This document shows positions 2,015 to 34,966 of a stretch of 64,000 nt of DNA, in pieces. Source of the DNA: Leucosporidium creatinivorum. Taxonomy: Eukaryota; Basidiomycota; Microbotryomycetes; Leucosporidiales; Leucosporidiaceae. Position 1 is the stretch's first letter; each line of letters opens with the position of its first letter. The DNA lies in the NCBI GenBank assembly GCA_001600635.1, contig BCKL01000010.1, forward strand, positions 26,747 to 90,746. The letters are read 5' to 3'. The notes beneath the pieces are model-generated. The model ran no database searches. It had not been told where the DNA came from and saw only the letters and a program-made list of their open reading frames with translations. Position numbers and translations under genes: made by a program.

Positions 2015-2440
2015 TCCTTTTGAGCTTGAGATTGGTGAGCGAAGAATTGAGGTTCACCATCTTGTCAAACTGCATCTGATGGAGGTGCAGGTGGAGCTGC
2101 CACCACCTGCAGAGATGAAGGTGCTCTAGAGAGGTTATGTCTAACATCTCAGTCAAGCACTTGGCTCCACCACAACGGGCCTGCTTGCTGAGTCCAAGAG
2201 AACGGGCGAGAGGATTTTAGTTCGAGGGAAGCGGCAGGCCACAAGGCGTTGGTACAGAGGGCTGGGATAAACCCAGGTCTTCAATAAGTGACGGAGCTAG
2301 AAGCTGCAGGTAGTGAGAGGTCAGCGGTGATGCAAGGCGAGGCGAAGTGGCTTGCTGGACTCACACCCCGTTGTTCCCACGTCTATGGCAATGACAAGCT
2401 TCTCCTCGCCCCAGTAGGGCTCTTTGATGGTGTTGGACAT
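2015..2440 (-). pseudogene. 5' fragment of an Hsp70-like (HSPA12-type) gene, decayed
   Basis: Read on the minus strand from the ATG at 2440, this fragment repeats the start of the intact Hsp70-like gene at 32329. Exon 1 gives MSNTIKEPYWGEEKLV and the phosphate-binding motif DVGTTG, followed by the same GTGAGT donor and an intron with a GCTGACC branch site. Exon 2 opens with an in-frame TGA soon after the acceptor, but is still recognisable further on, for example CRWWQLHLH and QMQFD against VKWWKLHLH and QMQFD in the intact gene. Similarity fades near 2015 and nothing of the rest of the ATPase fold remains. Exon 1 and intron 1 are nearly identical to the intact copy whereas exon 2 is clearly diverged, so the change in similarity is sharp. 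Host gene relic, not functional as Hsp70. Confidence 0.8.
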
Positions 2441-3054
2441 AGTGAACCTCCCGAGCAAAGAGCTGAGCGGTAGCAGTCGGAGAGAAAGAGAGCGGAGGCC
2501 AGAAAGCAGCGAAGCTAAGGAGGCACTGGCTCCAAAAACGAGGGTCACGGAGCCCACTGAGGTGGGGCAGAAACAAGTGGGATGGCTCACAGGTACCCAG
2601 AAGATCAGCTACTGCTCAGCAAACGCTGTGAGCTTGTCTCTCCCGAGCCACAGGTNGGAGTTGATCATCGCCGAGCTCGCTTCATCTGCTCGCATCAGCC
2701 TACAAGGAGACGGGCTCAGCTGTGCTACATCACACAGCGGACTGAAAATACTGTAAGGCAGCAGGGCCTGTATAAGATTCCACATGCTACCGGGCTGACC
2801 GCCAACAGACCGAAAGCGTCGATGTGCCACTCGGCTCGGTCGAGGGCTGGAGAGAGGAAGAGGATCGCTCTGAGCTCGGATCTCGGCTCCAGAGGTTCAT
2901 CCAGCATAGAACTATCCCCCACGCAGCCCAGCTCTACCTCAGCTGGACCTCTTCCCGAAAGCAACTCCGACCCTCGACTTGAGTCGCGAGCAGCTGAAAT
3001 CGGGCTTGCCCTCCTCCCACTTCGACGTGCTCTTCGCCTCGCGCTCGTTTCGAG
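2441..3054. promoter_or_regulatory. shared divergent spacer between Hsp70-like fragment and lipase
   Basis: This 614-base spacer lies between the start of the minus-strand Hsp70-like fragment (ATG 2440) and the plus-strand lipase (ATG 3055). It contains a TATAAGA word at about 2770, pointing at the lipase, and one undetermined base at 2656. The open frames across it are not coding, because the matching spacer in the other arm breaks them. Its near-perfect conservation with 31716-32328 probably reflects gene conversion rather than function alone. Confidence 0.6.
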
Positions 3055-5533
3055 ATGAGCTCTGCTCGCGCCAAGACGACTACAGGTGATCCTCGAGGCG
3101 CGCCTCAAACGGATCGCCCTGCCAACAGGCTGCTGCACGATCACGCTACAGAGCTCGCCCACTTGAGCTCGCTTCGTCAGAGCTTGATGCGCAGGGCCAG
3201 GAGGTCGTTGCCCATCGCCTTGTGAGTAGGCAGCTGTGTGCGAGCTGGACAGCCAGCTCACTGCTCTGTCCCACTGCAACAGCCTCAACTACATCCTCCA
3301 GTCTGTTGCGTCCTACTTGAAGACGCTGCTCCTCTCGCCGTCGACCATCTTCTTCGACCCACTCAGCACCATCGCCTCGATTGTCATCTACCCTGTCATC
3401 TTTGTCTTCCTCTTCCTCGCCGTCGTGGTCCTCTACATCGCCTTGCTGCTCGTGAGTTGAGCTTGGTTGGGGGCTCCACAAGCTGTTCGGCGCCCGCTGA
3501 CCTCTCACTCGGACTGTAGGGCTTCGGAAGGGTCATGCGTGCCATCAGCAACAGGTGGGCGAACGGCTACAGTATCATCAACTGGGTAAGTACTTCGACC
3601 GAGCTCGTTCGGCGTAGACGAGAGCTGACTCGGGTCTCGGCTACAGCCCAACCCCGATCTCTTCTCGTCGCAAACGGCTCGCAACACGGTCCATTCCGCT
3701 CGCGCTACTCTCGCTGGATGCGCTACAACCTTCCCCGACGCTCCCCCTCCCGGCGCAACCAACATCGATCTCGAGCCGGGCTTGACGACCAGGATCTTTG
3801 ACCTTGACGTAGCCAGGGTGCGTTGCAGCGTGTCTTCCGAGAATGCGCTTGCTCACGCGATCTATTACCTACAGGCCTTCCTCCTGATGTCGGCTCTCGT
3901 CTACGAGCGCCGAGACGGCGATGTCATGGCGGCGAGCGAGATCTTCACCCAAGACAAGAAGGCCGCCGAGGTCTTGCTTCACAGGTCCGAGAAAGTCATC
4001 AGGGAGCAGGTAAGCCCCGCTGTACCAGTCTCGCTGAGGCTGGTTGGAGCGACGGGAGGAGACTCGGCGGAGGGATGAAGCGCCGAGGCTGTCGAGAACG
4101 CCGAAGAGAGCTGACCTCGTCGTCTCCTCCACTAGGCTTCAGGCTGGAATCTCCGATACGAAGGCATCTCGGACTTGGCCAGCACGTCGGGCCCTTTCGC
4201 CTCCATCTTCTACACCGAGGAGGGCGATCCCAATCCCTTCATCGTCCTCTGCTTCAAGGGCACGACGCCGACCAACTTTGCCGAGGTACGTAGTCGTCAG
4301 CCAAAAGCTTGAAGATGAGAAAGCTGACCTCAGCTCTTCAGTTACTTGTCGACGCCACCATCTCGCGCGTGTCGAGCGCCGTCTTCTTCGGCGATGGCAC
4401 GGCGCACCAGGGTGGGTCGAATCGCTCGAGCTTAGAGCCTGGTACACAGCTGACCGCTTGCTCCGATCACAGGCTTCTACACCGACCTGTTCCCTACTAC
4501 TGAAGGGGGCGCCGACGGCTACGGTGAGGCCTCAAGCTCTTAAGCGACGCTTGCTTCTCCGGCCGAGCTGACCTCCGAACCCCCCTCTCCCACAGGTCAG
4601 ATCACGAGGAGCCTTCGTCACGTCGCCAGCGAGATTTCGAAGGGAAGGAATGAGGTCGAGCCCGTCCCTCTCTGGGTCACTGGTCACTCGCTCGGCTCGG
4701 CGCTCGCTTCGCTCATCTACGCTCGCTACCTCCGCATGCCTTCCGACCTCGGCAAGGGCATCAGGTTGAGGGACTGCTACACGTACGGTAGTAAGTGCCA
4801 CGACCGCTACCCTGCTCCCTCGACCGACGCTGACTCGACCTCGCCTCTCCACAGCTCCTCGCCTCGGTGACGGCACTTTCGTCTCCAAGTACGAAGAGGT
4901 GAGCTTCTGATGTCGAGTGAAGGGTATCAGAAACGAGGCCAACACGCTTCATCTCACCGCAGTCCACCTGCACTCCTCTCGACCGACCCAACATCTTCTG
5001 GCGCATCATCAACCACTGGGACATCGTCTGCCAAATCCCTCCGTGAGCTCCCGCCTTGACCTCCGACGAGAAGCACCAAATCTNACTCCTCTCCAACCCT
5101 CAGCGGCCTCGCCGANAACGAGCTGAACCGCGCGAGCCTNTCTGCCCTCTCGGTGCTCAACTACGGCCACATTGGCNCCTCGCTCCGCCTCAACCCNTGG
5201 ACCCACCCCTTCTANACGGTCCAATCCTCCTCCTTCCATTCTGCCACCCGCGTCGTCGTCGTCAAAGAAGGCGCTCAAGGAGAGAGGACCCGCTCGAGGT
5301 GGAACTCGATCTCGGGGGAGACGGGCAACCCGCTCCGCTGGATCCTCATGCTCTTGCCTACGCCCATTTGGAACCATTTCCCCGCTTCTTACTACACCCA
5401 CCTCAACGAGATTCATGTGGATGGGCAAGGAGGCGCGTCGAGGTTCGAAGAGCCTGAGACGGGAGCGGCGAAGAAGGTGCCGAGCTTGAGGGTCGAGAAG
5501 GAGGAGAAGGTCGAGACGACGAAGGATGATTGA
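3055..5533 (+). CDS. class 3 lipase, membrane-anchored (left copy)
   Basis: Predicted alpha/beta-hydrolase of the fungal lipase class 3 family (Lipase_3), likely acting on acylglycerols at a membrane. I count twelve exons, including 3055-3221, 3283-3451 and 3520-3585, giving about 575 residues. Residues ~75-112 form hydrophobic membrane segments (IASIVIYPVIFVFLFLAVVV). The nucleophile elbow GHSLGSALAS is coded near 4681. DIVCQIPP and NYGHIG downstream fit the family's Asp and His positions. The start is the ATG at 3055, whose exon ends at a GTGAGT donor. The last exon is intact apart from six undetermined bases between 5084 and 5215; one lies in a TAN codon that is Tyr only if the base is a pyrimidine. 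The C-terminus is charged and low in complexity. A nearly identical gene lies at 29239-31715. The family call is firm; the substrate is inferred. Confidence 0.9.
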
Positions 5534-5765
5534 GGGAGCGAGGGGCTGCGACTAGCTTGTGCTTGTGCTTTGTTGCTGTGCGTAGTGATCTGTGATAGCT
5601 GTTTTGCCATATGATACGCCTTCTCTGTGCTTGCGCTCGGCAGACGATCAGCTCGGCGAGGCTCGCTGGCTCGCGGACAAGCTGTTCCAGTGTTGGCGGA
5701 CAGACAAGTCAGGCTTACTCGATTATTCATCGTGCTGCAAAGGTACGCCGTCTCCTTCCCGTCCC

Positions 5766-7812
5766 TCACAGCAGCTTCGGCCTACCAGCCGGCATGAAGG
5801 CCTTGATCGCATCACGTTCGAAATCCACAATTGCCGCCAGCTGGTCGGCGAAGCGCCTGCTCGGTCCCACGCCGATGTTGTCCCTCATGAGCGACTCGTG
5901 AGGTTTCGTGCACGGGCGTCCACCGGGAGGGTCGGTGAAGAGGGCAAAGCGCGCCGGCGAGTCGGGGTGAACGAGGGTGCGCACCAGGGGGAGGATCTTC
6001 TCCACAGGATCGCGGGTCTCGCGAGAGCCCACGCGACGTGCGACGTTGTCGGCGAGCTTCTGGAAAGCCTCGCGGAAGAGATCGCGACAAGCGACGACCT
6101 TCTCCACCGCGAAGGCGTAGTCACGAAGCTCGGGGAAGTTGTGTGGTGCAGCAAGGAGGTAGCGGGTCTGTTCGATATCTGCAGCAGCCGAAGGTGAGCA
6201 AGGCAGGCCGGATGATCGTCTGAGCAACTCACCGAGCCGCTGAGGATGGTCACGCCACAAGCGCTCCACGGCGATCCTGGTCCGCGGAACGAAGCGTGCA
6301 GTCGAATCGGTAGCATGCGGGAGAGACGGAAGTAGGTCGGTGTTGGTGCGGAAGGATAGGAAGACGACCTCCTCGGGCGTGAAGGTCGGCAGGTCGAGGT
6401 TCGCTTGAGGGTCGATGGCAGTGAGGAAGGCCGCCATACGAGTCCAGAATCTGTAGGGCGAGTCGATGATCAGCGAGTGGAAGAGCGGGAGAGAGCTTGA
6501 AGCTTATCCTGGAGTCCAGTCGACACTTGTCAAGCGGTCGCTCACGTAACGCTTCCAAGCCGGTCCCGCATTCGAGGCGAGGGGCAGGGGGCGCTCGAGC
6601 GGATCCAGACGATTGATGAGGGGTTGCGGCGAGCGGCTCCTTCGGCGCGAAGCGACAACGGGTCGAATCGGCGACAGGGAGCGTTCTCGTGCTCGGTCGC
6701 CGCGCTGGCGGGACACGTCGACAGGGAAGCGGTCGCGTGAGCGCGAGCGCGAGCGCCTGGGAGCTTGTGGAATGGCGGAAGGGACGCTATAGAAGAGGAC
6801 GAGGTAAGTCAGCTTCAGCGCTCTATAGAATCGAAGACAGCTGATCTCACTCTTCGGCGGCCATCTTGAATCCGTAGGCTCGGCTCCAGCCTTTGATGGC
6901 CATCCTCAGAGCTGCGAAAGCGGGATCATCCGTCGCAAGAGCACCTAGGTAGATCGTTGCGACGGCAGAGTCGTCCACAGCGCGACCCTTGGAACGGTAG
7001 CGCCGAGAGTTGATGCGCAACGAGCACTCCTGCTTGTCCTGTCCGTTCTCCACGACATGACGGCCGCCGAGGTCTGTTGACTTGTCGTGTCAGCTCCAGA
7101 ATACTGTAAGAGATGCGACCGAGGCGGGAACTCACACTTCAAGCTCCCAATCTGATCTCCTGCGCAAGAGAAGAGCTCCTCCGAGCGCTGCTCGAGCTTC
7201 AACCCATCCTTCTCGACGACGAGGACCATCTCCTCGGTCTCCATCGAGGCATCTCCACCGTGCTTCTCAATCTTGAACACCTTGCACTCGAGCTGAGTGA
7301 GCTGTCCCCTCTGGTAGCTCGCGGCCTGGGTCAAGAAGAGGCGTCCAGCAGCCGCGCAGAGGTCTTGGGTCGCGTCGGGCGTGAACTGGGCGATCAGGAG
7401 CTGTGCCGGAGAGAGGCGAGGGAGGTCCTCCAGGGTCAACGCGACGGCGTGGTCTAGCTCGAAGACTGCAGACGCGAAGGAGAGGGTCAAAACAGCCCGA
7501 AGGCAGACGGCGAAAAGCTACAGCAACTCACGGTCTTCTCGTCCGCGCTTGTCTCCTGCCTTGAAATTGTAGGTGAGTTGGCGCATGAGGTACTGCAGGC
7601 AGGAAGAAGCAGCATCAGCGCGGCGGCCTCGAGCCTGCTTCAAGCTGGATGGGACTGACCAAGCCGTAAGCACGCTGGCGCGTGAGAAAGTCGAGGTCTG
7701 GCCGGAGAGCAGCAAGCGCCAGTTGAGTAGTCGAGAGGTGCTGCACCGTCTTGGGCGTGGCGAGAAAGGCGGTCGGCTGGTTGAGGAGCTCTTGCGATGC
7801 TGGGAGCGCCAT
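5766..7812 (-). CDS. unknown protein with RS-rich central region
   Basis: A multi-exon gene I do not recognise. The first exon (ATG 7812, good context CGCCATGG) reads MALPASQELLNQP. It joins through GT-AG introns to frames containing YLMRQLTYNFKAG, LEDLPRLSPAQLLIAQF, KVFKIEKHGG and MAIKGWSRAYGFKM, then to an arginine/serine-rich stretch (RRSRSRSRDR, RRRSRSPQP), and ends with a globular exon of about 220 residues closing at 5766. An in-frame ATG at 7965 would add about 50 residues rich in leucine. The RS-rich part suggests an RNA-processing or nuclear role, but that is only a guess from composition. It is convergent with the left lipase, 233 bases apart. Confidence 0.7.
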
Positions 7813-8144
7813 GGCGAGTAACAGGCGTGGTAGAAGGGCAACTAGGCCGACCTTGCGCTGGTGAAGACCCGGAGGCGAAGCGGTCGAAGAGGCGAGCAGA
7901 AGGGAAGAGGGAGAGCCGCCTCGAGGACTTTCGCGCTGGGTCAAGGGGGCAAGGTCAAAGCGCATGCAAGTGGTTGGACGGGTGAGACGGCACTAGGCAG
8001 CAGCCAAAGTAGTGCTACAGTGCTCGCTTGAACTCACTGCTCTCCCCCAGCACCCGACTCGGCGCGGCTCAGCTAGCTCGGCGCTCGGCTCACTCGTGGA
8101 TGGACTTCTAGCTCGATTAGCCCATCCTTCTCCCTCCGATCTAT

Positions 8145-11100
8145 CTACTTGAGGTTCACACCACTCCACTCGGCCCTCATCCACCCTCTCCTGCTCAAAT
8201 TCCCGAGCCCCAAGCCTCCGCTCCCAACTCCACCGCCCATCGCTCGCCGTGTATCGAGTCCCAGCTCTTCCAGCTCGGACGAGACGGCTCCTGCTGCCAT
8301 CTGGAGGAAGAAGCGCGCCATGGTTGACTTGAGGTAGTTGGAGAGGACCGAGACCTCCATCGAGTCGCCCCGGGCGGAGGCTTCCTGCGAACGCCGAAGG
8401 GAGGGGGAGAGGGTCAGCGGTCGAGCTCGGGGAGTCGAGGGACAGCATAGCGGGCGACGGAGGAACACGGACCTGTACTTGCTGCCAGAAGCTCTTCTGT
8501 AAGGGGAAGCGCTTGAGGCGCACTGTGGGGCGAGCGGCGGAGGGTCAGCTCAGCTCGACGCACGCCTCGCCTCCTCCTCGAATCACCGCCTCTCTGAACG
8601 CGAAGCCATCGAAGGCGAGACTCACCATCCATCTGCATCGTCAGCTCCCCATTCTCGTCCATCTGCCATTTGGTGCCCGGCAGCAGAGCTTGAACAGCAT
8701 CCGTGTCCGAGGCGTCGGGGTTCTCGACCTTGTAGCCGGCGATGCCATTCGAGATCTGATATCGTAGAGTGAGGAGAGGATGTTGCGTGTAGGAGAAAGG
8801 GCAAGAGAGAGGCGAGGAAGAGGGACGATCAGCTCCAGCTCTCCCCGTCAGCGCCGACAACGGACCAGCGACTCACAAACAGCTCGGTAGCGTAGACCAT
8901 CGCATCTCGGATTCCTCCGATCCCATCAATCAATCCTCGACCGAAAGGTCCCGGCTGCACCTCATACCTCCCCGCCGCTGGGACCGGTCCCGCATTCGGC
9001 GATGATGGCGGTTCTTGTTCGGCGTGCGTGGAGGTGGCGAGGGCTGTAGCAGCGGCAATGGCAGGGGGGTCGGCGAGAGGTGCTTCGATGGCGGTTGGGG
9101 GAGTGGCGGTGGGGAGGAGAGAGGAGGCGGAGGACGTGGCGGGAGGGGCGGGAGGGGCGAAGGGCGAGGTGTCTTGATCTTCAGGGAGGACGACGATGGC
9201 TGCTCGGTTGAGGTCGTGGTCCTGAGCGGCTTCCTCCGACGACGATGCCTTGGAGTCTCCTGCTCCGACAGCAGCACCCTGCTCCTCGCCCTTCTCGACC
9301 GGCGAGCTCTGCACCACCTCGGCCACCTTCTCCTTGACCTCCTCAATCTTGGCTCCCACTGCTCCCGCCTCCTCCTCCTTCTGCTCCACCACCGGCATAT
9401 CCAACCCCTTGATCCTCCTAATCAACTCCTCCGGCGCATTCAGCTCGAAAGCCTTCAACCCCGTCATGACCCTCCCTCCCGCAATCAATTCAATCACCTC
9501 AGGATCAATCCCCCGTCCCGTGCAGACGCGGTTCTTGAAATCATCGTACATCTCGTCCACGTGGGCTCTGTGCCGGACGAGCTCGTCGCCGGAAAGCTTG
9601 TGCGTGACGTCTTGCGAGCGCGAGCCGGTGAAGAAGGAGTCGAGGGTGATGTGGAAGCGGTCGAAGAAGGCGATTAGGAAGGTAGGACGGAGAGAGGCGA
9701 CGCCGATGCTGTGGTTGAGAGGAGAGAGGTCAGCGATGGAGGGCAAGGGGGGCGAGAGCGAGGGCCGAGGGGCGCGAGTGAGCGAAGGACGAACGAGCCG
9801 GTGACGGTGGAAGCTGTAGGTGAGCAGTAAGGGTCAGCTGAGGATCACGAGCCTGAAATAGTGAACTCACGAGCAGCGATGATAGCGTCGGTGTCTGTTT
9901 GACGAGGGCGAAAGAGGTCAGCTCGGCGTCTTCCCTCCACTCGCTCCCACCTCAGCACAAACAGCACTCACGAGTCGACACCAAGTACCCTCCACTCGCA
10001 CTCGCATTTCCAAAGCTAGCGACGACCGTCTTGCCATACTTCTCCCTCAAATCCCTCACCGCAGCCCAAATGGTATCGCTCTCGACGACGCCTCCTCCGC
10101 CCGAGTCGATACGGAGGACGACAGCGCCGATGGAAGCGTCCTCGCCTGCTTCTTTGAGACCGCGAACTACGGCGGCGGTGCCGAACCTGTGGTGGAGAGC
10201 GGAGGTGAGGTCAGCGGCGAGTTCGACTAAGCGCGCCGACCACGGGGACAGCACCAAAACTCACTCTCCCGGATCCCCAATCGTCCCCAACAAGTACACC
10301 ACCCCTACATCAATCGCCTCAGCCACACTCTTCTCCACGGCCTTCTCCATGACCCTCGCATAATGGTAAAGACCCTGGACCTTCCTCTCCTCATCACCCC
10401 CCTTCTCATTACTCAACACACTATCCAACACGTCCTGTCGGTATCCCACCCCGTTGAGCAGACCGGCGGAGACGGCTTCTGTTGCGGTGTAGGGCCCGAC
10501 TTGGGAGAGGGCGCGGACGTGATCCAACCCGCTCTGGCCGGGGTGAGTGGGGAAACGGTTCCGTGCGATGTAGGTGAGGAGGTTGGAGTTGAGGTCGCTG
10601 AGGAGCTCGATTTGATTCTCTTTTTGGGGGGGCTGTTGACGAGAGAAGCGGGATGGAGGGAGAGAAGCGGCGATCGAGGTCGAGGTTGAGGAAGGGGAGA
10701 GGAGGGGAGGGAGCGGATTAGCGAAGGACGAGCGAACACGATGGAATTCGGAGGCTTACCGTAAGCTTCTCATCAATGTACTGTGATGCCAGGGGAGTCG
10801 AGTATCATGAGAGTAGCGAGGAGGTCAGCTCCTCAACCACCGCCGAGCTTCTGCCCTGCCACCTCTGTGCTCAACTCACAGGCTGCACAAATGACTTGTA
10901 CTCATTTCTCGCCTCTGCATGCACTTCGATACCGAGCCACTTGGCTAGCCGACCGAAGAAGGGGGTGGTGGAGCCTGTTTGGTGGTCATCAGAGTCAGCG
11001 CCGAGCGGGGAAGAAGAGTCGGGAGGCGACAGCGCACCCATGCCCACGAGGGGAACTTCGCCGGTAGGTTGGGTGTAAATCTCGTCGAAGGCTGTTGGAG

Positions 11101-12110: not shown

Positions 12111-12208
12111 CGCGGACGAAGCTCAAGAGGGAGAGGGAGAGGGAGACGCGCGTCGATTCTCGACTTGGCTCTGTCCAAATCAGCTCGCTTCGACTCAGCT
12201 AGAGGAAG

Positions 12209-12989: not shown

Positions 12990-13336
12990 TGTTGGACAGG
13001 AGGAAGAGTGATTCGGTATATGTGCTGTGAACTTGCTGTGACTTGCTTGTACTAGCTGGGACAGGGAGGGAACTCGGCGGAGAGTTCGGCGATCCAAAGA
13101 GAGGCGGTCTGGAATCTGCTCCGTTCTGCTCGAGTGATTATCTACCAATATCGGGCTACATACCTCCCCGACAGCCTCTTGCGATTCCCCTGCCGTCTCG
13201 ATTCGACCTCGGCGCCCAAATGCCGAGCCCCTCTCAGCCAGCCTGACCAAGTCCGGGGGGCGTGTTTGGCGCTTGACTTTAGCATCATTCCTCGTCTTCC
13301 CTTTCGACCAATCGCCGCCTCCGAGCAGGACTTAGG

Positions 13337-16300
13337 ATGCCGGATTCTACTGTACATACTAATGGGCAGGAGAAGGTGCAGGAGAAGAGCGATGCTGGAC
13401 GAGGAGGAGGGGAAGCAAGTGCAAGCGGACGGGGAAGCGACGACAGCCAAAGCAGTGGATCGACCAATGAGGGACAGCAGCAGCATGGCAAAGGGAAAGA
13501 TGCAGGATCTGCTACTGCTGCTGTTGTAGGAGGAGCTCAATGGAGAAAGAGATGGCCTGCTTTCACTACTCCCATCAACAGTGAGCTTACTCTCACCCTC
13601 CGTCATTCTCTCTCGGGGCTAACTCCCGCTGTACCTCAACAGTCCTCTTCCCACCTCGACCCTCTCCTTCTACCCTCCCCCTCATCGCCGCCTCTTCCAA
13701 CCGCGCCGCCTGGCGAGCAAGGAAGCTCCTCTTTCGCGCCATGCTCGTGACACTTGCATGCTTCATCTTGCTCTTGGAGCCTAGGAGTTTAAACGCTTTG
13801 GGGCAGGCCGCATTCTTTGGGTGTATCGGTGAGTTGTGGAGTCCCGCTGAGGAGCAAGAAGGGGAGAAGGGGCTGGGAAGCAGAGCCGAGCTGACCTCCG
13901 CCGAACGAACGATCCTACAGTCTCCATCATGATCCCGCCTACTTTCCCTGCTATGGTGTTCGTACTTGTAGCTACCATGCTCGTGTTCGGAATGGCCCTG
14001 GGTGCGTGGATCTCTCTCTCTTCGTCCGAGGTTTCTTCTCGGCGCTGAGCTCAACGTTCCCTCTTCCTTCGCCGTCCACTTCCTTCTCCCACTTTTTTCC
14101 CTCCCTTCCTCGCGCTCCTCTACTTTTCTGCCTCTCCGCCGAATAGGATGGGCCTGGTCCTGCGCCGCCATGGCCGCCGCCCTGCTCGCTCGGGACAAAG
14201 TCTACCTCGCCTCGCAGCTCCAAATCGCTCAGCAGTCGTTCGTCCTCCCGTCTCATTCTATTCCGAGCTCAAGACTGTACTCTCTGTCTTATAGCTCAGA
14301 GCTGACCTGGTGTACGGCTTCACAGCGCCGCCACAGCAGTCAACCCCTCGGCCGCCTTCCGCGTCTCCATCTTCCAAGGCGATTTTCTCGACTGGAGGTC
14401 AACATTAGTATATGGGTGCTTCTTCGCCCTAGGAACATTCGTCCTGGGGTTGTTGAGGGCCAACAACGCCAAGTTGACGCTCGTGGCGGTGAGTCTGAGA
14501 GCGGAAGGTGTGGACACGAGCTGATGTCCCTCGATTTGCAGATCTTTGGCTCCATCGTCATGGACGTGATGATGAGTTACGGACCCCTCTTCCCCGTCAA
14601 GCAATACACGCTCGCAACGACCTTTCTCAGTGAGCTCATTCCTTCTCCCTTCCCTTCGGCGCTCGCTGACCGCTCTCCTTCTCGAAGTTCCGACCGGCTG
14701 TTTCGTCGCCATCGGCATGATCGCCAATTTCACCATCTTCCCCGAAACGCTCAACTCGTCCTATACCACCGACCTAGTCGACAAATTCCTCATCCCCATC
14801 CTCCAACGCTCGCACCTGCACTCCAAACTGCTCGCTACCTCTCCTCCTACCGAAGCGGGGGGGTCGGCCGAATGGGACGCGTTGGGCGTTAGGTTTGATG
14901 AGACTCAGAGGGGGATTAGTGCGGGATTGGAAGGCCTTTTGGGGAGTACGGCGATGCTTGAGTTGGAGGTTAGTTATGGGAGGTTGGGAGCTAAAGATTT
15001 GAAGGGGATGGGGGGCAAGCTAAGGGAGGTGTTGACGAAGAGTATGGGATTGGGAGTGCTATTGAGGACGGTGGCGAGGCAGCATCGGGTGAGTGGTCGG
15101 AAGGTGGGAGGGCGGCTCGACGCGGAAGCTCATCTCGCTCATCCACTCAACAGCGCCGATTCGGTAACGAGGCTCCCGCTTCAGCTACCACCCTCTCCAT
15201 CCCCACCACTACGACCAAAGGAGCCTCCAGCTCCACCCCCCGTACCACAGCCCGCATGGCCCGCCTGCGCACCAAAGTCGACGCCGCCGAACTGGCTCAT
15301 CACCACTCCCTGGCCGCCCTTCTTCCTCTTCTCTCTTCCTCCTCCGCACCACTCAGAACAGCAACCGACGAAGCCCTCCTCGGCGCGATGGAATGGTTGA
15401 CGACTACCTCCTCGAATCGCTGGGGTCGGCAGCTGAGCGCCGAGGTCGTGCAAGAACGATACCAAGCCCAACGAGGGAAGGTCGCAGCCCTCGCTGCCCA
15501 GATCGCCGAATGGAAAGCCTCAGGCCGTCTCGCCGTCACCGCCCCCTTCGCCTCCTTCTTCGACCCCATCACCGGCGCTCTCCTCCCCCGCCCACAGGAG
15601 CAGCACTTCTCCCCCGCCTCCCTCTTTATCGTCCTCTCCGCCTCGGACAACCTACTCGTCTACGCTCAAGCTGTCTATTCGCTGACGCAGCAGCTCTCGG
15701 AGTTGGAGGATAAGAGGAGGAGGAATAAGCTGTGGTGGCCGACGGGGTTGAGGAAGGTGGGCAATTTGGTGAGAGGGGGGAAGGGAGTTGGGGAGATGGG
15801 CGATGGGGAGAATCCGGAGGAGGTGACACTGGTGGGGGATGGGGAGGAGGGTGAGGAAGGTGGGGAGGGTGAGGTGCGCGAGAAGGAGAAGAAGAAGGGC
15901 AAGGGGGAGAAGAGCAAGGAGGAGGAGGAGTCGGACTTCTTTGCCAAGAGGAAGTGGGAGAGTGAGTTCACGCTGTCTTGCCTTTCTCCCTTCTCTCTGC
16001 TCCCTTCAAACGGGGAGGTGATCCCATCCTCGAACGCCGAGCTGACCACCACCTCCCTACTCTTGCAGGGCACGACCCCGACGCCAAGCCGCCCAAGAAC
16101 GCCCGTCAACGCTTCGCTCTCAAGCTCTACTACGTCTCCAAATGGGCGCACAAGGCCGAAACCATCTTTGCGTTCAAGTGAGTCCTCGTCTGCTCGGCTT
16201 GACTCGGCGGGAAGGGAGCTGAGAGGTCGGTCAAACGCCAAAGCTGATCCTCTTCTTCGACAAATAGGTACATGATCGGCTCGGTCCTACTCTGGCTTCC

Positions 16301-18173
16301 CCAGGTGTTCCCCTCGTCGGCTTAGTGAGTCGTCGCTCGCTTCTCCAGGCTCCGATCTCTGCGCGAGCTTCGTCGAGGATTCAGCGGACGTGCGCTGACT
16401 TCGCACGCATCGGCCACTCCTACAGTTTCGTCTACACCGAGAAGGGTCTTTGGAGGTGAGTCAGCCAGTCGGCTCTGGCATTGCTTCGAGAAGGACTCGG
16501 CTAACTTCGACCTCGTCGGACAGCTTGATAATGCTGCAAACGGGCCTCGCCGTCTACGCGGGAGACCAGATCTTACAGACGGTGCAGAAGCTGACTGGCA
16601 CTGCCATCGGACTCGTGTACGGCATGCGTGAGTCGTATGAGGCTCGGCCTCTCCTCCTCTCCTCTCGTCGAACTGGCCGAGCATGCGCCTGTCGCTTAGG
16701 AGAGCGAGCCGGCGACAGCTGCAGCTCATCTCGGAGGTTTTCCAACTAACTCACTCTGCCTCGACAGTAATTTGGTACATTGGATCCGGCACGGGTACGG
16801 GCAGTCGGCCAGGTCTCGGCGCCGCCTTCTACATCCTCATGCTCCCCGCCATGGCTATCCGTCTCTACGCACCGCCGGCCATGATGCAACTCACTATGAT
16901 GATGGCGGTGACTACCGTGCTGGTGGTGAGTCTCCGAGTCGAAGGCTTTCTCGGCGCTCGAAGCTTGAGCTGATCCCTCTGTCGGCTTTCGCCACAGGTC
17001 GGCTACTCGTGGAGCAACGCCCACCTTCCCACTCTTGGCAGCCCAGGTATCGGCTACCACCTCGCCTGGAAACGAGCTCTTCTCGTCATTATCGGAACGT
17101 GAGTCGCGCGGAGCTCTGCAGCGTGCTTCCGCTGACCGTCTCGCTCCTCCACAGCGCTGCCGCTACCATCCTCATGATGTTCCCTTCTCCTCAATCGACT
17201 CGCCTCCTCGTTCGACGAACCCACGCCACTTGCATCGACCAGATCGGCCGACTCTACGCACAAGTACTCTCAGCTTGGTTGTCGGAGGAGCGCCGAACCT
17301 CGGCGCAGGAGAACGGCGCCTCGGCGAAGAACCTCGACGACCACTTGCCCTCGGCCTTCACGCAGAAGGTGCAGCAAACGGCGAGAGCGAGGATGCTTGC
17401 CATCTGGACCAAGCTCAACGGCACGAAGGCGAGCATCTTGCAGAGCAGCTACGAGGTCTCGCTGAGAGGTGATTGGCCCAAGAAGGAGTACCTTCATTTG
17501 TTGGAGACGCAGCTTAGTCTTGTACAAGCATTGGCGCAGCTTGGGCAGTCTCTCACGAGGCTGGATCCGAAGTGGAGGAGGACGTTGGTGAAGCAGACGG
17601 CTTTCTTGAACCCGAATCTGGTACGCATCCGCTCTTCAGGCTAGAAATGAAAGCTGTTGCTGACTTTCCTACCTTTCGCAGATCTCGGACGTTTCATCTA
17701 CCTTCACACTCGTACGTGACTTCACCTCGGCGACGAAAGACCTCGGCGTTGAATTTAACTCCCACCCACAGCTCTCCCTCGCCCTCCGACAAGGCTCTCC
17801 TCTTCCGGAAGCTACTCCTGGGCCCCTCCTCGACCGACTTCTGTACCACGACGCCCGCCTTCGCAACCTCACCGAGCGCGAGGACGAGGAGCATCCGCAC
17901 TCACAAGTCGAGGGCGCCTCGGTTGGCGACTTTGAGCTAACGCTGGGTGTGCTGCAGGTGGGCTACTCCTGCTCTGACCTCTCTCAAAACGAGTAAAGCT
18001 GACCTTTACCGTTCGAACAGGACGAGCGATTCGCCACTCACGCCAGCGCCATCCTCGCCCTCGCCAACATTCTCTCGGCGCTGGACGAGTTAGAAGAGAC
18101 GACAAAAGAGCTGGTCGGAGAGGTGTCCATGCCTGGGTATCATGACCTGCTGGCGAGGCGCGCCGAGGTTTGA
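13337..18173 (+). CDS. BRE4/ArAE_2-type multipass membrane protein
   Basis: Large fungal membrane protein of the type called brefeldin A-sensitivity protein or aromatic-acid-exporter-like family 2 (ER transporter 6TM N-terminal domain plus ArAE_2/DUF2421 domain). The N-terminal ~70 residues are low in complexity and polar. The first helical bundle follows in short exons (MLVTLACFILLLEP, MIPPTFPAMVFVLVAT, GCFFALGTFVLGLL, VPTGCFVAIGMIANFTIFPE). The middle is a long soluble region with a lysine/glutamate-rich run at about 15840-15940. A second bundle (YMIGSVLLWLPQVFPSS, GAAFYILMLPAMAIRLYAP) comes before the C-terminal domain with NRWGRQL-type and HDARLRNLTERED segments. The stop at 18171-18173 closes the exon that begins after the CAG near 18021. 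At least 15 exons. Transport substrate unknown; the family call rests on topology and sequence character. Confidence 0.75.
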
Positions 18174-18524
18174 ACGGAGTGTAAGGAGCTGACGGCTGTA
18201 GGCCGTCGCTGAGGCACAGTGAAGCATCCTAGAGTCATCACTGTATATTTAATCGCCTGTTGCACTATCTGAAGAGCACGGACCAGCGCTGCAGGCTCGA
18301 GAGAGGCAGCTGCGAAGCTCGGCGAAAGGGGCAAAGCTGAGCGAGGGAGTCCGACGTCTTTTGGCAGAGCTGCAGCGACTCCTTAGCGACTTTCCAGTCG
18401 GTCCAGCTGCTCTGCTACATCCCTCGTCGTCCGCCTTCACTCGCTCCCCGAGCGTCACCACTCCAAAGCGTCCCTCTCCCTTCGCCGTTTCATTCGTCTG
18501 TCTGCTGTCAACTCGCCTCGCAAC

Positions 18525-23967: not shown

Positions 23968-24409
23968 GACAATAGGAGGGGGGAAGGGAGACCAGCGAAG
24001 CGCGCTGCTTGGACTCGTTCTACAACTCGCCGCTGGCAACTGTGCGCTCCGGGACCACCTGACAGGCTACAGAACTAGTACAGTCATCCTCTCCTGCTCG
24101 CTCGTATCCCCGAGCAGCTCTCAAGTAGACGCAAGTAGACGATCCTCTCACACCTCTCGCGCCCCGCTCGCCTCCCGCTTCCCTTCCCGTTCCCACGAAT
24201 AGCCCCCTGCGGCCACCTGGTAAAGCTCGGATCTCTCTCTTTCTCTCTCCTACCACATCACTGACCTACCACTGCTCCCGCACCTTTCTTCCCGCTCGCA
24301 ACAGCTCACCACCAGCCCACCACCTCGGAGCTCAAAGTCGCCGAGCAGCCTCCCACCTTCATCTCTCACTCGCTCCCAGTCCCGGCCTCTCGGACACCTA
24401 CACACCGCC

Positions 24410-25627: not shown

Positions 25628-25832
25628 AGCCTGGGAGAGGGAGGGGAGAAAGATATAGACACTTTTTGCTCCGTACTCGCTGTTCGACATCCGCTTTGTA
25701 GCCTCCTCAGCTGTAATTCGTCATCGTGGCTTGTTCATATCTCGCTCGGCCCGCTCGCAGCGAGAGAAACTTGGCGTGGGCTCGACGTAGCGGTGGTTCA
25801 GCAGCCCGACACCTCGCTCTATGTCCCATCAC

Positions 25833-27535
25833 TCTACGCCTCCAAAATCTCCGCCAACTGATCCTCCTCCTCCATGATCTCGAGCTCCCTGGCGACCATA
25901 TCGAGCGTCTCTCCTCCTTCCATCGCGTCCGACAGGCCAGAGATGGTCAAGGGGATACGGTGATCGGTGATGCGGTCCTGTTGGAGCGGGTGGGAGATTC
26001 AAGTCAGCGCTCGAACGGCGTAAGCGAGCGATTCGGCGGGGGAGCAAGCGCCGACGCAGCGAAATCGGTCAACAGAAGGCAGGGGAGGTCGAAACACACC
26101 TGAGGAAAGTTGTACGTCCTGATCTTCTCGCTCCGATCCGTGCCCTTGACTTGATTCCTCCTGACAGAGCGACGAGCTTCCATCTCGGCGGTGAGGCGAC
26201 GGTCCATCAGCCGGGCGCGGAGGACTCGGTAGGCTTTCGTTCGGTTCTGTTTGGTCGAGAGTGCGGATGATGAGGGTGAAAGACTGTCAGTTGGTGAAGG
26301 TAGAGATGGGAGAGGCGGTTGACGGTCGGCGAGGGGCGAGGGGCGAAGACGGAAGGCGGCGAAGCGGGAAGGCAGGCTTTGGTGCGGGGGAGGGGGAGGG
26401 CGAGAAGGCACTGAGCGAGAGAGCACAGTTAGACGTACCTCGTGTTGTGAACGAGAGTCCTGCATCGAGACGGTGACGCCCGTCGGGACGTGAGTGAGAC
26501 GAATCGCCGACTCGGTCTTGTTGACGTGCTGTAGATGAGAGGAGAGTTGGTGGGCCGCCTTCAAGTAGCTGATAGAGTGTACTAACCTGTCCACCGGCTC
26601 CTCGGGACCGCATGACTTCGACCTTGACGTCTTTTTGGTCGAACAGGTCGTCGTCCATCGGCGCCGAGTTTGCTGGTTCAGATGGGAGGACCTGGGGTAA
26701 AGAGAAGGTTCGAGAGATGCACAGAGAGTGTCAAAAGCCTCTGAACCCACAATGATGCCAACAGTACTGGTATGAACCCTCCCTTGACTCTCGGTCGCCG
26801 GAACCCTCTGCACTCGGTGCACGCCAGCTTCCCTCCTGAGCACTCCGAACGCTCCTTCTCCCGTTACTTCCAGGATAGCCTCCCTATAGGCATCTCCCGT
26901 ACCCATCCCCACTCCTCCCAACCCCACACTCTCCACCAAACTAGCCTTCCACCCTTTCCTCGTCGCCATTTTGGTGTACATCCTGACCAGTTCAGCAGCA
27001 AAGAGGGATGATTCGGATCCTCCCACTCCTGATTTGATCTCTAGGAGAGCGGAGAGAGCCGAGACGGGAGGAGAAGGGATGAGGGCCGAGCGAAGGGTCG
27101 AGCGAAGGGAGCGGAGGGTCGATTCTGCTTCTGGGAGGTCGCCGAGGGCGAGTTCTCGCAGGTCGGCGTCGGATTCGTTGTCTGCGAGGTCTTGGAGTGT
27201 TGCGACGAGCTGTAGAACAGTCAGGGATGAGTTGAAGCCGAGTCGGCGGAGAACGCGAAAGGAGAAGGAGAGCTCACCTCTTCACCATCTGTGACATCTG
27301 CGAGAGCAGCACGTAGACCGTCTAATTCCCTATCCCGCTTTGCCGCTTCTATAGAACCGGACTCGCTGTTGGCGGCTGCCTGGTCGAGAGTTTTACGAGC
27401 GGCGAGGAGCAGCTTGTCGGCTGGCGGTGGTGGAGGAGCTGCAGCGTAATGTCGTACTAGTGATGGTGATGCTGCTGAGCAGGTGCAGTGTAGTAATGTA
27501 GGGAATAAAGCTGTCTTCGGCGCTAATCGAAGCAT
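25833..27535 (-). CDS. mitochondrial peptide chain release factor 1
   Basis: Class I release factor acting at mitochondrial stop codons. ATG 27535 starts a basic, serine-containing presequence (MLRLAPKTALF) followed by a proline run. The core contains GVGGSESSLFAAELVRMY, the RF1 codon-recognition tripeptide PAT within VQRVPATESQGRVHTS, and the catalytic GGQ within MRSRGAGGQHVNKTESAIRL. The family ending includes VKGTDRSEKIRTYNFPQ, DRITDHRIPLT and LEEDDQLA-like EEEDQLAEILEA before the TAG at 25833. PAT rather than SPF points to UAA/UAG recognition. Exons are separated by short introns, for example near 26530-26590 and 26230-26440. It is divergent from NAC-beta with 87 bases between the starts. 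Confidence 0.92.
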
Positions 27536-27622
27536 TTCTAGTAGTGAATTGGCAAGAGGGCAAGGGGTAGTCGAGCGCGTCGATGCTCTTTCTCCCTTTT
27601 ACTCCCTCCTTACTACCTCATT

Positions 27623-28809: not shown

Positions 28810-29238
28810 GCTCGCCGCTTCCTACCCCTGCCTCCGTCGTCCTTCTCCCTCTCTACGGGATTGTAGCGCTCTTCCAAAATGCAGAAATCGAAACCGTCGT
28901 CTAAATGAAACTGGCGTTTGACTGCCACGACGAGGGTCCCCGCGACTGAAGGCTTCGACTGCTCGGTCGACCCCCCGACGCCTAGTGATCTCTCGCCGAG
29001 TCGCCCAGGATGCAGAGCTGCTGGGCTGCAGGCGCTTGAGCGGTCGCTTTACGATATCCATCGGACTCGGCTTCAGCTTCCCCCATCCCAGCCAGTCCAG
29101 AGCCCTGCGCCTTCGCCGAGCTGCTCGTCTGCCGGGCGAAAGCACCGAGAAGTCGTATCGTATGGCAAAACAGCTATCACAGATCATTACGCACAGAAAC
29201 AAAGCGCAAGCACAAGCTATTCGCAACCCCTCGCTCCC

Positions 29239-31715
29239 TCAATCATCCTTCGTCGTCTCGACCTTCTCCTCCTTCTCGACCCTCAAGCTCGGCGCCTTCT
29301 TCGCCGCTCCCGTTTCGGGCTCCTCAAACCTCGACGCGCCTCCCTGCCCATCGACATGGATCTCATTGAGATGGGTGTAGTAGGAAGCGGGGAAATGGTT
29401 CCAAATGGGCGTAGGCAGGAGCATGAGCAACCACCTAAGCGGATTGCCCGTCTCCCCCGAGATCGAGTTCCACCTCGAGCGGGTCCTCTCTCCTTGAGCG
29501 CCTTCTTTGACGACGACGACGCGGGTGGCAGAATGGAAGGAGGAGGATTGGACCGTNTAGAAGGGGTGGGTCCANGGGTTGAGGCGGAGCGAGGNGCCAA
29601 TGTGGCCGTAGTTGAGCACCGAGAGGGCAGANAGGCTCGCGCGGTTCAGCTCGTTNTCGGCGAGGCCGCTGAGGGTTGGAGAGGAGTNAGATTTGGTGCT
29701 TCTCGTCGGAGGTCAAGGCGGGAGCTCACGGAGGGATTTGGCAGACGATGTCCCAGTGGTTGATGATGCGCCAGAAGATGTTGGGTCGGTCGAGAGGAGT
29801 GCAGGTGGACTGCGGTGAGATGAAGCGTGTTGGCCTCGTTTCTGATACCCTTCACTCGACATCAGAAGCTCACCTCTTCGTACTTGGAGACGAAAGTGCC
29901 GTCACCGAGGCGAGGAGCTGTGGAGAGGCGAGGTCGAGTCAGCGTCGGTCGAGGGAGCAGGGTAGCGGTCGTGGCACTTACTACCGTACGTGTAGCAGTC
30001 CCTCAACCTGATGCCCTTGCCGAGGTCGGAAGGCATGCGGAGGTAGCGAGCGTAGATGAGCGAAGCGAGCGCCGAGCCGAGCGAGTGACCAGTGACCCAG
30101 AGAGGGACGGGCTCGACCTCATTCCTTCCCTTCGAAATCTCGCTGGCGACGTGACGAAGGCTCCTCGTGATCTGACCTGTGGGAGAGGGGGGTTCGGAGG
30201 TCAGCTCGGCCGGAGAAGCAAGCGTCGCTTAAGAGCTTGAGGCCTCACCGTAGCCGTCGGCGCCCCCTTCAGTAGTAGGGAACAGGTCGGTGTAGAAGCC
30301 TGTGATCGGAGCAAGCGGTCAGCTGTGTACCAGGCTCTAAGCTCGAGCGATTCGACCCACCCTGGTGCGCCGTGCCATCGCCGAAGAAGACGGCGCTCGA
30401 CACGCGCGAGATGGTGGCGTCGACGAGGAACTGCAGAGGTGAGGTCAGCTTTCTCATCTCCAAGCTTTTGGCTGACGACTACGTACCTCGGCAAAGTTGG
30501 TCGGCGTCGTGCCCTTGAAGCAGAGGACAATGAAGGGATTGGGATCGCCCTCCTCAGTGTAGAAGATGGAGGCGAAGGGTCCCGAGGTGCTGGACAGGTC
30601 CGAGATGCCTTCGTATCGGAGATTCCAACCTGCAGCCTAGTGGAGGAGACGACGAGGTCAGCTCTCTTCGGCGCTTTCGACAGCCTCAGCGCTTCATCCC
30701 TCCGCCGAGTCTCCTCCCGTCGCTCCGACCAGCCTCAGCGAGACTAGTACAACGGAACTTACCTGCTCCCTGATAACTTTCTCGGACCTGTGAAGCAAGA
30801 CCTCGGCGGCCTTCTTGTCTTGGGTGAAGATCTCGCTCGCCGCCATGACATCGCCGTCACGGCGCTCGTAGACGAGAGCCGACATGAGCAGGAAGGCCTA
30901 CAGGGAGTGACGGGTGTGAGTATGAGCTTTCAAAGAAGATAAGCTGCAACGCACCTTGGCCACGTCAAGGTCGAAGATCCTGGTCGTCAAGCCCGGCTCG
31001 AGGTCGACGTTGGTCGCGCCGGGAGGGGGAGCGTCGGGGAAGGTTGTAGCGCATCCAGCGAGGGTAGCGCGAGCGGAATGGACCGTGTTGCGAGCCGTTC
31101 GAGACGAGAAGAGGTCGGGGTTGGGCTGTAGCCGAGACCCGAGTCAGCTCTCGTCTACGCCGAACGAGCTCGGTCGAAGTACCTACCCAGTTAATGATGC
31201 TGTAGCCGTTCGCCCACCTGTTGCTGATGGCACGCATGACCCTTCCGAGGCCCTACAGTCCGAGTGAGAGGTCAGCGGGCGCCGAACAGCTTGTGGAGCC
31301 CCCAACCGAGCCGACTCACGAGCAGCGAGGCGATGTAGAGGACCACGACGGCGAGGAAGAGGAAGACGAAGATGACAGGGTAGATGACGATCGAGGCGAT
31401 GGTGCTGAGTGGGTCGAAGAAGATGGTCGACGGCGAGAGGAGCAGCGTCCTCAAGTAGGACGCAACAGACTGGAGGATGTAATTGAGGCTGTTGCAGTGG
31501 GACAGAGCAGTGAGCTGGCTGTACCTCCGAGAGCTGTCCACTACTCACAAGGCGATGGGCAACGACCTCCTGGCCCTGCGCATCAAGCTCTGACGAAGCG
31601 AGCTCAAGTGGGCGAGCTCTGTAGCGTGATCGTGCAGCAGCCTGTTGGCAGGGCGATCCGTTTGAGGCGCGCCTCGAGGATCACCTGTAGTCGTCTTGGC
31701 GCGAGCAGAGCTCAT
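29239..31715 (-). CDS. class 3 lipase, membrane-anchored (right copy)
   Basis: Second copy of the lipase at 3055-5533, with the same twelve-exon structure: ATG at 31715, N-terminal hydrophobic segments, GHSLGSALAS nucleophile elbow, NYGHIG and the same charged tail. Visible protein changes are few, such as KAPSL against KVPSL, RWLLML against RWILML, and Lys against Arg at the end of one exon. Many base changes are silent or lie in introns; intron 1 and the intron following DLDVAK differ most. Silent change with protein conservation suggests both copies are under selection. Six undetermined bases fall in the last exon at positions mirrored in the other arm, including the TAN codon. Convergent with NAC-beta. 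Confidence 0.9.
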
Positions 31716-32328
31716 CTCGAAACGAGCGCGAGGCGAAGAGCACGTCGAAGTGGGAGGAGGGCAAGCCCGATTTCAGCTGCTCGCGACTCAAGTCGAGGGT
31801 CGGAGTTGCTTTCGGGAAGAGGTCCAGCTGAGGTAGAGCTGGGCTGCGTGGGGGATAGTTCTATGCTGGATGAACCTCTGGAGCCGAGATCCGAGCTCAG
31901 AGCGATCCTCTTCCTCTCTCCAGCCTCGACCGAGCCGAGTGGCACATCGACGCTTTCGGTCTGTTGGCGGTCAGCCCGGTAGCATGTGGAATCTTATACA
32001 GGCCCTGCTGCCTTACAGTATTTTCAGTCCGCTGTGTGATGTAGCACAGCTGAGCCCGTCTCCTTGTAGGCTGATGCGAGCAGATGAAGCGAGCTCGGCG
32101 ATGATCAACTCCNACCTGTGGCTCGGGAGAGACAAGCTCACAGCGTTTGCTGAGCAGTAGCTGATCTTCTGGGTACCTGTGAGCCATCCCACTTGTTTCT
32201 GCCCCACCTCAGTGGGCTCCGTGACCCTCGTTTTTGGAGCCAGTGCCTCCTTAGCTTCGCTGCTTTCTTGCCTCTGCTCTCTTTCTCTCTGACCGCTACC
32301 GCTCAGCTCCTTGCTCGGGAGGGTCACT
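31716..32328. promoter_or_regulatory. shared divergent promoter of lipase and Hsp70-like gene
   Basis: This 613-base spacer separates the right lipase (ATG 31715, minus) from the Hsp70-like gene (ATG 32329, plus). It is nearly identical to 2441-3054. It includes the mirrored TATA-like word (about 32000) and a single TTCGGGAA pair near 31813 that resembles two units of a heat-shock element; three units would be expected for a good site, so the regulatory reading is weak. Divergent layout allows co-expression of the two genes. Confidence 0.55.
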
Positions 32329-34966
32329 ATGCCCAACACCATCAAAGAGCCCTACTGGGGCGAGGAGAAGCTCGTCATCGCCATAGACGTGGGAACGACG
32401 GGGTGTGAGTCCAGCAAGCCACTTCGCCTCGCCTCGCATCACCGCTGACCTCTCGTGACGTGCAGCTGCCGTCTGCTTCACTCATCTACAGCCTGGGTCT
32501 ATCCCCGCCCTCCGCACCGTCACTTCGTGGCCTGCCGCTTCCCTCGAGGCCAAGATCCCCTCGCTCGTTCTCTTCGACTCGGCAGGCGAGCCCGTTGCGG
32601 TCGGAGCCGAGTGCTTGACATTTGACATGTTAGACCGAACCTCTCGTGCGCATCTCCGCCTGGTCAAATGGTGGAAGCTCCACCTGCACCCTCGTCAGAT
32701 GCAGTTCGACTCGACGGCCACCCTCGCCCCATTGCTGGCCGATGTCACTCTCGACAGCTCGCTCTCGATCGGCGCTCGCACTACTATCGTACCCGACTTT
32801 GACGTCCCTTCTCTTCCTCTTGGGGTCACCATTGACAAGGTGTACCGCTCCTTCCTCGCCTATCTCTTCAAGCATGCGAGAGCTTGGTGGATTGAGCACA
32901 AAGAGGGAGGTGCAGCGCTATGGGACCAGCTATACGACTCGGCCGAGGTTATTATGGCTCTTTCCGATGGCTGGAACGAGTCGCAGCAGGCTATCCTCAA
33001 GCGAGCGCTTGTCGCGGCGGGCGTTCTCAGCGCCGAGGGCGCCGAGCTCAGGCTCACGTTCGTTCGGGAGGCTGAAGCTGCCATCCATTACGCCCTGTCC
33101 TTTGCTGCGACTTGCGACTGGCTCAAAGTGAGCTCCGGTGGCGTTTACGGGCGCGAGGATCGAGCTCACCCTCCTCTTACGCAGCCCGGCGCAATCTTCA
33201 CTCTCGCCGACCTCGGTGGATCAACCGTCGACATCTGCATGTGTAGGTAGCCACCAGTGCTCTCGGTTTTTGTTTGAAGCTCATCTTTTTCTCGTCGCTG
33301 TGATAGACCGATGCGTTCAAGTCTCGCCAACCCTTCAGCTCAAGGAGGTGAAGGTGTCCGATTGTAGGAGGCCTTTGCTTCTCTCCGTCAAAGCCGCGCC
33401 CGCTAACGACCTCTCCGCTCACACAGGCGTCCAAGCCGGCGGTGTCTACGTCGACCAAGTCGCCAAGACCGTCATCAAAGCCAAGCTCGGCGGCTCGTCA
33501 TTCTTCCTCCCCGAGATTGTCGCCCGCCTTGTGGCTCTCTTTGAGGAGAAGCCCAAGCGCAAGTTCCGCGGCGACAAGGAGACTTTCTACATCAAGTTCG
33601 CCTCGCCCTCAGAGGGCGACCAAGCTCACGGTGTTGTCAAGGGCCGCCTAGTCCTATCGTCGTGGGTCGCCGCAGCGCGTGTTGGTGGCAGTCGGCGGCT
33701 GACCTTTGTTCTTCATCAGGGCGGAGGTCGAGTCTACCTTCTCTTTCTGCGTCAACGAGATTCTCGCCGCCGTCAAGCAGCAGGTGCAGATGGGCAGCGA
33801 CAAGTCCTCGGTGAGTTCAACTTCAACCTCGGCGCTCGCGCTTGCAGACCCGGAGCTGACCTCAAGGACTCTACAGCACATCATCATCACCGGAGTTCGT
33901 CCATACTTCACCGTGGCTTTGAGATGCTCTCGCTGATCTTTCTCCTTCTCCCACGCAGGGTTTCGGCGAGAGCCCTTACGTGCAAGCTCGTCTTCGTGGC
34001 TTCTTCGAGCCTTCGGGCTTCAAGATTGAGACGAGCGGAGAGCAGAGGTACGTTGAATCTCTCTACACCTGGGTAGGTGCTCGCGCTGACCTCCTTTTTT
34101 TCCACGGCGGATTGAACAGCAAGCTTGCCGTCGCCGAAGGAGCCATCTACTCGTACCTCAGCTCAATCGTCTGTGCCAGAGCCACCAGAAGCTGCTACGG
34201 CAACGAGGTGATGGTGCGGTACAACGAGCTCAACCTCGGTCATCATGCCCGCCGTCCTTTTGCGCACGTGAACGGGTTCCGATACGTCGACGGCGCCTGG
34301 AGTGCAATTGTCCCCAAGGTAAGCCCGAGCACGGTTCTCAACATCACAAGACCTTCTGACCTCTCTATACTTTAGGGTTCGGTCCTCCACACTTCGGCTT
34401 CGTTTTCTCAGTCTTACGCACGGATGGCCCGCGACCCTCGAGCATTGGCTGCCTTTGAGACCAATGTGCTCGTCTATGACGGAGAGGGCACCCCAGAGTG
34501 GTGCAGGAATAGATACGGTACATGAAGACTCTGCACGGTCCCTCTGCACGCTGCTGACAGCTCTGCACTAAAATGATCTACTTCCTGGATTCGTGCGCCG
34601 AGCGACGGTCTCGGCCGACCTCTCTCGCTATGTCGCAACGCTTCAGCCTCTGCGCCTGGGATCTATGTTTGAGCAAGCGGCTCCTCGTGATGTGCTGTAC
34701 GGGAACGCCTACTATCGAGTCGAGTTCAAGATCCGCCTCTTCGTCGCTCAAAGCACTCTCACGGCCAAGGTGCAGTGGAGGGAGGACGTGAGGCTTCCCT
34801 ACCGTTCTACATATATGAGCTGCGCTGACCTTGTCCTCTTCTGTAGGGCTGCTTGTGCGAGGGACCGGCTACTCTTGTCTTCACCGAGCTTGATGATCGC
34901 GCTGCGGGGGTACTAACTCAAGTCGCCCGCCGAGCTATCGCCGATACGGTGGCGTCGCGCGCCTGA
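32329..34966 (+). CDS. Hsp70-like actin-fold ATPase (HSPA12-type), copy A
   Basis: Divergent Hsp70 superfamily protein lacking a typical substrate-binding tail, like HSPA12. Exon 1 (32329-32404) carries MPNTIKEPYWGEE and phosphate loop 1 DVGTTGS. Exon 2 starts at 32466 (AVCFTHLQPGSIPALRTV). ADLGGSTVDICMY is phosphate loop 2, and HIIITG joined to GFGESPYVQARL is the adenosine motif. The C-terminal part is family-specific (WCRNRYG, FVRRATVSADLSRYVATL) and ends DTVASRA at 34966. About 12 exons. The intron after NRYG has donor GTACAT and a GCTGAC branch site, but where the paralogue predicts the acceptor the sequence is CTTCCTG instead of ending in AG (about 34589), and the nearby upstream CAG leads to an immediate stop. 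The gene may therefore use a rare acceptor, or be damaged near its end. Client and process unknown. Confidence 0.83.

Follow-up and report, generated by a model that had tools for sequence, protein, structure and literature searches.

A patchily diverged pair of inverted, lipase-bearing arms around 23.4 kb in Leucosporidium creatinivorum, a candidate flip/flop segment

Why are two inverted copies of a gene block identical in some parts and strongly diverged in others, and what would an inversion between them change? The question is raised by a stretch of 64,000 nucleotides from the basidiomycete Leucosporidium creatinivorum (assembly GCA_001600635.1, contig 10, BCKL01000010.1, positions 26,747-90,746; hereafter the window, in whose coordinates positions are given), which we compared with itself and with the 27.7-Mb assembly of 63 contigs. 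A sequence-only reading had noticed two arms in inverted orientation at 2015-5665 and 29115-32755, enclosing nine genes, and had proposed that recombination between them would flip the interval and change the promoter side that each lipase gene faces. The patchwork between the arms is probably best explained by an ancient duplication, in inverted orientation, of a block of two genes, with later gene conversion between the two arms.

When the window was aligned to itself by BLASTN, a single large inverted pair appeared, 2064-5662 / 32710-29109, with 95.04% identity over 3,610 columns (E = 0). An ungapped search resolved it into five collinear inverted pieces that reach 2017/32757, the outermost piece being just 70% complementary. 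The ends reported earlier were right to within a few bases, but the outer 300 bp of the arms are only 68-83% alike in 75-column bins. The ungapped search placed the inner ends 23,453 nt apart, giving the following arrangement:

2017 to 5662, plus strand: left arm, aligning well from 2064 on, with a decayed outer end
29109 to 32757, minus strand: right arm, aligning well up to 32710

Full copies of the arm numbered at least two in the genome search, the counts of which are lower bounds, and the other 11 of the 13 matches were pieces on contigs 13 and 23 with 66-86% identity. An origin of the arms as a mobile element found no support, the outer ends fading instead of stopping and only two full copies appearing in that search, whose counts are lower bounds.

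Each arm contains an open class-3 lipase gene, an upstream region of 745-746 bp and the beginning of a divergent Hsp70-like gene. The gene models are predictions only, made with a simple gene finder of our own that was trained on the window, and are of spliced genes with short introns:

3187 to 5533, plus strand: left class-3 lipase, 12 exons, 531 amino acids, three residues ambiguous owing to N, with a Lipase_3 exon match on the genome
29239 to 31583, minus strand: right class-3 lipase, 12 exons, 531 amino acids, Pfam Lipase_3 match with E = 8.7e-18
32329 to 34525, plus strand: right Hsp70-like gene, predicted whole, 562 amino acids
2017 to 2440, minus strand: left Hsp70-like remnant, exon 1 retained and followed by stops and frame breaks

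The two lipase proteins differ at 11 of 531 residues, and the GT and AG intron ends are retained at all eleven introns of both genes. From the Hsp70-like ATG to the lipase stop the arms measure 3,094 (2440-5533) and 3,091 bases (32329-29239), which bears out a net length difference of three bases claimed before. The 745-746 bp between the lipase ATG and the Hsp70-like ATG lie entirely within the arm, and the lipase with its promoter-side region is complete in each arm, while the Hsp70-like gene is not whole within it.

Because the lipase and its upstream region lie inside the arm, neither lipase would change its promoter on inversion; a crossover anywhere in the arms leaves this block intact, so that each lipase keeps a complete, nearly identical upstream region. 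The suggestion that a flip alters the promoter side of each lipase does not survive this arrangement, and all that an inversion would alter is which way round the middle genes lie between the outer flanks. The remaining part of the proposal, that the 23.4 kb would be inverted if the arms crossed over, is sound reasoning, and the patchy homogenisation described next suggests that the arms have indeed recombined in the past.

With N opposite N scored as a match, arm identity by bin ranged from 68% at the outer end up to exact runs of 343, 384 and 981 columns. Two blocks are of particular importance:

2501 to 3227, no strand assigned: exact-match block covering the upstream region and lipase exon 1; it has a single-base gap at 2844 and one mirrored N, at 2656/32113
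4348 to 5328, no strand assigned: exact-match block of 981 bp within the lipase, with six mirrored Ns at 5084-5215

Differences at fourfold sites were absent from 4348-5328 (0 of 123), compared with 14 of 122 in 3228-4347 and 4 of 28 in 5329-5533; likewise, lipase introns 7-11 showed zero differences, compared with 1.6-33.3% in introns 1-6. The left Hsp70-like remnant, which the sequence-only reading had not recognised as such, differs from the right arm at 25.4% of positions over 2017-2303 and at 5-8% over 2304-2440, and its similarity to the right protein ceases at about residue 121 of 562. When the columns of 2441-5662 were shuffled 2,000 times, the longest exact run reached at most 324 columns against the observed 981 (271 against 736 with Ns scored as mismatches), a test that presumes like, independent sites and reveals clustering, not its cause.

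These figures bear on two simpler accounts. A recent duplication without conversion, in which the differences lie where mutations happened to fall, would agree with the overall identity of 95% and with both lipases being open; however, one intron is 33% divergent and part of the Hsp70 remnant 25%, while 981 columns are free of differences, values that are hardly of one age, and since none of the 2,000 shuffles reached the observed run, this account is contradicted unless the exact blocks are artefacts. We consider it very improbable. We give almost no credence to the idea that the whole inverted arrangement is an assembly fold-back error: a near-perfect fold-back is present on contig 13, but the arms here are about 5% different, the differences between the lipases keep to the code, with 38 synonymous codon changes to 11 that replace an amino acid, and in part of the left remnant 25% of positions differ; a copied stretch would show none of this.

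A second inverted pair on contig 23 (325283-328942 / 350284-346626, about 17.7 kb apart) carries a relative of the Hsp70-like gene and shows a patchwork resembling that of the window pair. It is 91.7% identical over 3,694 columns (92.9% over 3,584 columns by BLASTN), and its longest exact run is 1,246 against 139 in shuffles over the 3,694 columns, or 570 against 247 when 3,014 trimmed columns are used and Ns count as mismatches. Both of its Hsp70-like copies may be broken, because each shows one stop in the displayed frame, at a different position.

The window contains 14 ambiguous bases (N), and all of them form mirrored pairs between the arms, a feature absent from the sequence-only reading; all seven pairs lie inside the exact-match blocks, and five fall in lipase coding sequence, four of these at third codon positions. 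The mirrored Ns are probably unresolved differences between the two copies where the reads of both were pooled, and they are a warning that arm identity at such places is not to be taken at face value. Six of them fall within 132 bases, at about the density of differences seen in the unconverted parts of the arms, and for this reason conversion may not have reached the stretch at 5084-5215.

The same observation gives weight to an account that accepts the duplication as real and old but attributes the exact blocks to the assembler or polisher, which would have pooled the reads of both copies and written one consensus twice. The mirroring of all seven pairs within exact blocks agrees with it, as does the lack of any N in the 17 readable stretches, of 10 kb each, among 20 sampled elsewhere; the other three, from contig 10:1-26746, read N throughout, right up to the start of the window. 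Three further stretches picked for their inverted duplicates held 15 Ns, all in duplicated arms, and the exact block of the contig 23 pair has three mirrored N pairs, with eight more Ns in one arm only. On the other side, a true divergence of about 4-10% should yield dozens of ambiguous sites if the consensus marks most disagreements, but there is just one N in 2501-3227 and there are six, within 132 bases, in 4348-5328; moreover, pooling presupposes copies that are already nearly identical. Duplication alone does not bring Ns, since the 17 N-free stretches include four in the contig 13 fold-back and two with short inverted duplications. We regard this artefact as unlikely, though by no means negligible.

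The preferred reading, old duplication followed by gene conversion, would proceed as follows. An ancestral block comprising the start of an Hsp70-like gene, the shared upstream region and the lipase would have been duplicated in inverted orientation long ago. Gene conversion between the arms during homologous repair, which we infer from the patchwork, would then have erased divergence in the upstream region, lipase exons 8-11 and part of exon 12, with the unconverted parts retaining their old divergence and the left Hsp70-like part, beside a repeat-rich island, breaking and decaying. A minority of the exchange events might, more tentatively and by analogy, have been crossovers inverting the 23.4 kb, in the way suggested for the flip/flop region of Saccharomyces; such an inversion is plausible and would require no dedicated switch.

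Several points weigh against this reading. Contig 13 carries a near-perfect fold-back, in which two tested stretches of 9,828 bases matched at 100% and 1,878 columns near the centre at 99.84% (in parts of 10001-106000, near the contig start), and because of it the assembly may hold inverted artefacts. The fold-back, whose spacer of about 2 kb holds one gene that we take to resemble mannose-6-phosphate isomerase, may itself have arisen in assembly or be an inverted duplication of very recent origin. The exact blocks may partly stem from pooled reads, overstating identity, because all 14 Ns are mirrored pairs inside them, and the shuffle test takes no account of rate differences between exons and introns. 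A single genome reveals neither a change in the orientation of the segment nor the direction of conversion. Against flipping in particular, a section heading among the excerpts of PMC9731477 calls the orientation of the flip/flop (FF) region stable on laboratory timescales.

Local duplications are not rare in this genome: among eight arbitrarily placed 10-kb stretches, three had a duplication of 0.5-1.1 kb, inverted in two cases and direct in one. The first inverted duplication, on contig 15, joins 5363-6440 to 8924-10000 of its stretch (1,081 columns, 95.5%) and runs to the stretch end; the other joins 2707-3214 to 9474-9974 (85.9%), and the direct duplication 407-1239 to 2724-3555 (88.7%).

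The surroundings of the left arm differ from the rest of the window:

1 to 2016, no strand assigned: left flank, a mosaic made up of pieces of dispersed repeats and poor in CpG from about 1000 onward

This flank has 47 matches in the genome besides itself, of which 44 lie in blocks on 11 contigs, mostly one block per contig, and each of these contigs also has a match to the rve integrase family, either inside the block or no more than about 10 kb away. Of the 25 rve matches, six score below the family cut-off, the two on contig 12 among them, and four are found outside the blocks. The left flank is probably the edge of a transposon island, and such islands are possibly centromeres. The observed/expected ratio of CpG is 0.33-0.52 over 1001-2500, compared with 0.76-1.06 in other stretches of the window. 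Over 2017-2500, a C in the right arm is a T in the left at 22 of 84 CpG positions but at only 19 of 218 other C positions (both strands; Fisher p = 0.00025), counts that cover right-C/left-T changes only and carry no outgroup polarity. This pattern fits a left copy decaying by CpG mutation, of methylation type or repeat-induced, beside silent chromatin.

The name Hsp70-like is a weak assignment that draws on DnaK/HscA-type similarity and on a paralogue outside the arms:

37230 to 40012, plus strand: further Hsp70-like paralogue, about 31% identical to the right Hsp70-like gene

The right protein had no Pfam match at 0.01 and no match to a solved structure at E up to 1, and its NCBIfam matches were solely of DnaK/HscA type (E 0.10-0.28, far below the cut-off). 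For the paralogue, weak DnaK matches were found in the PDB (E 0.13 or worse), together with an NCBIfam chaperone match at 0.0026, below the cut-off. None of the 30 matches listed in a genome search with the HSP70 family (PF00012) fell inside the window.

Between the arms lies the segment that an inversion would turn around:

5663 to 29108, no strand assigned: middle segment, with S49 peptidase, BRE4/ArAE_2_N, RSN1_7TM, af470-like monooxygenase, release factor, NAC-domain protein and other genes

The gene finder gave seven models here. The Pfam scan of six of them, one through its first 233 residues only, identified the S49 peptidase, the BRE4/ArAE_2_N protein, the RSN1_7TM channel, the af470-like monooxygenase and the NAC-domain protein, and left one without a match. 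BRE4 and ArAE_2_N are fungal families. An open reading frame (ORF) at 26007-27026 encodes a PCRF/RF-1 release factor and overlaps none of the seven models, making an eighth gene, so that the earlier count of nine was roughly right. A second haplotype within the assembly is argued against by the piece of the middle that was searched, 13500-18200 (4.7 kb), which occurs once in the genome.

The contents of the segment bear on whether it could be a regulated switch, flipped to alter expression or mating type as in Ogataea polymorpha, where, according to the excerpts of PMC5720833, PMC5701183 and PMC4238957, inverted repeats flank a 19-kb region and centromeric repression selects the active genes. 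Arm size and spacing are about right for this, and the left arm adjoins a repeat-rich island that is possibly a centromere. However, whereas the Ogataea flip carries mating-type genes and is regulated, no STE3 or Homeobox_KN match fell in the window, STE3 matching at one place only (contig 25) and Homeobox_KN solely on contig 24 in a search of the genome apart from contig 10:1-26746, which reads N. Pfam scans of the middle gave ordinary cell genes or no match, no recombinase was found in those of six of the seven middle models (one partial), two models right of the arms and six ORFs, and the lipase upstream regions would stay the same on inversion. A regulated switch is extremely improbable.

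Among known systems, the nearest is the flip/flop region of 24 kb on Saccharomyces chromosome XIV, a kind of segment of which the window pair is a candidate further example. As far as the excerpts of PMC9731477 go, that region has homogenised arms of 4.2 kb, 24 kb apart (here 3.6 kb and 23.4 kb). As in the window, a complete protein gene and its promoter are within the arm and ordinary genes between, and the region lies near a centromere, as the window pair lies beside a repeat-rich island. They cite about 4% of conversions as resolving in crossovers, proposed to invert the segment, and say that the reason why the arms stay alike was not identified. The two cases also differ: both orientations are seen across Saccharomyces strains (PMC9731477), but only one genome is available here; the Saccharomyces arms are almost identical, whereas ours are 95% alike and patchy; and the gene families in the arms are different ones. 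In Saccharomyces each arm contains a tRNA gene as well as two entire protein genes, whereas one arm gene here is a remnant and no tRNA gene was found in the window. On the mammalian X chromosome (Caceres et al., cited in PMC9731477), recurrent inversion between homogenised repeats has been observed, and the mechanism proposed is the same, gene conversion between inverted arms with an occasional crossover. Published inversions, in the parts of the literature seen, include budding yeasts, mammals, insects and plastid genomes, and basidiomycete work covers the mating-type loci of Cryptococcus and Kwoniella; we make no claim to a first case.

More speculatively, and in our view doubtfully, the window may hold a natural flip/flop segment beyond the budding yeasts, one that lies next to a centromere-like island, is built from an unrelated gene family and could toggle the silencing of its end genes by inversion. 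If this were true, inversion would set which end of a 23-kb gene block adjoins the repeat island, and the contig 23 pair would make inverted, mutually copying pairs recurrent in the neighbourhood of Hsp70-like and lipase genes. An independent case with other genes, together with another pair elsewhere in this genome, would speak for such segments being a general by-product of repair between inverted copies, and against their reflecting a special property of one gene family.

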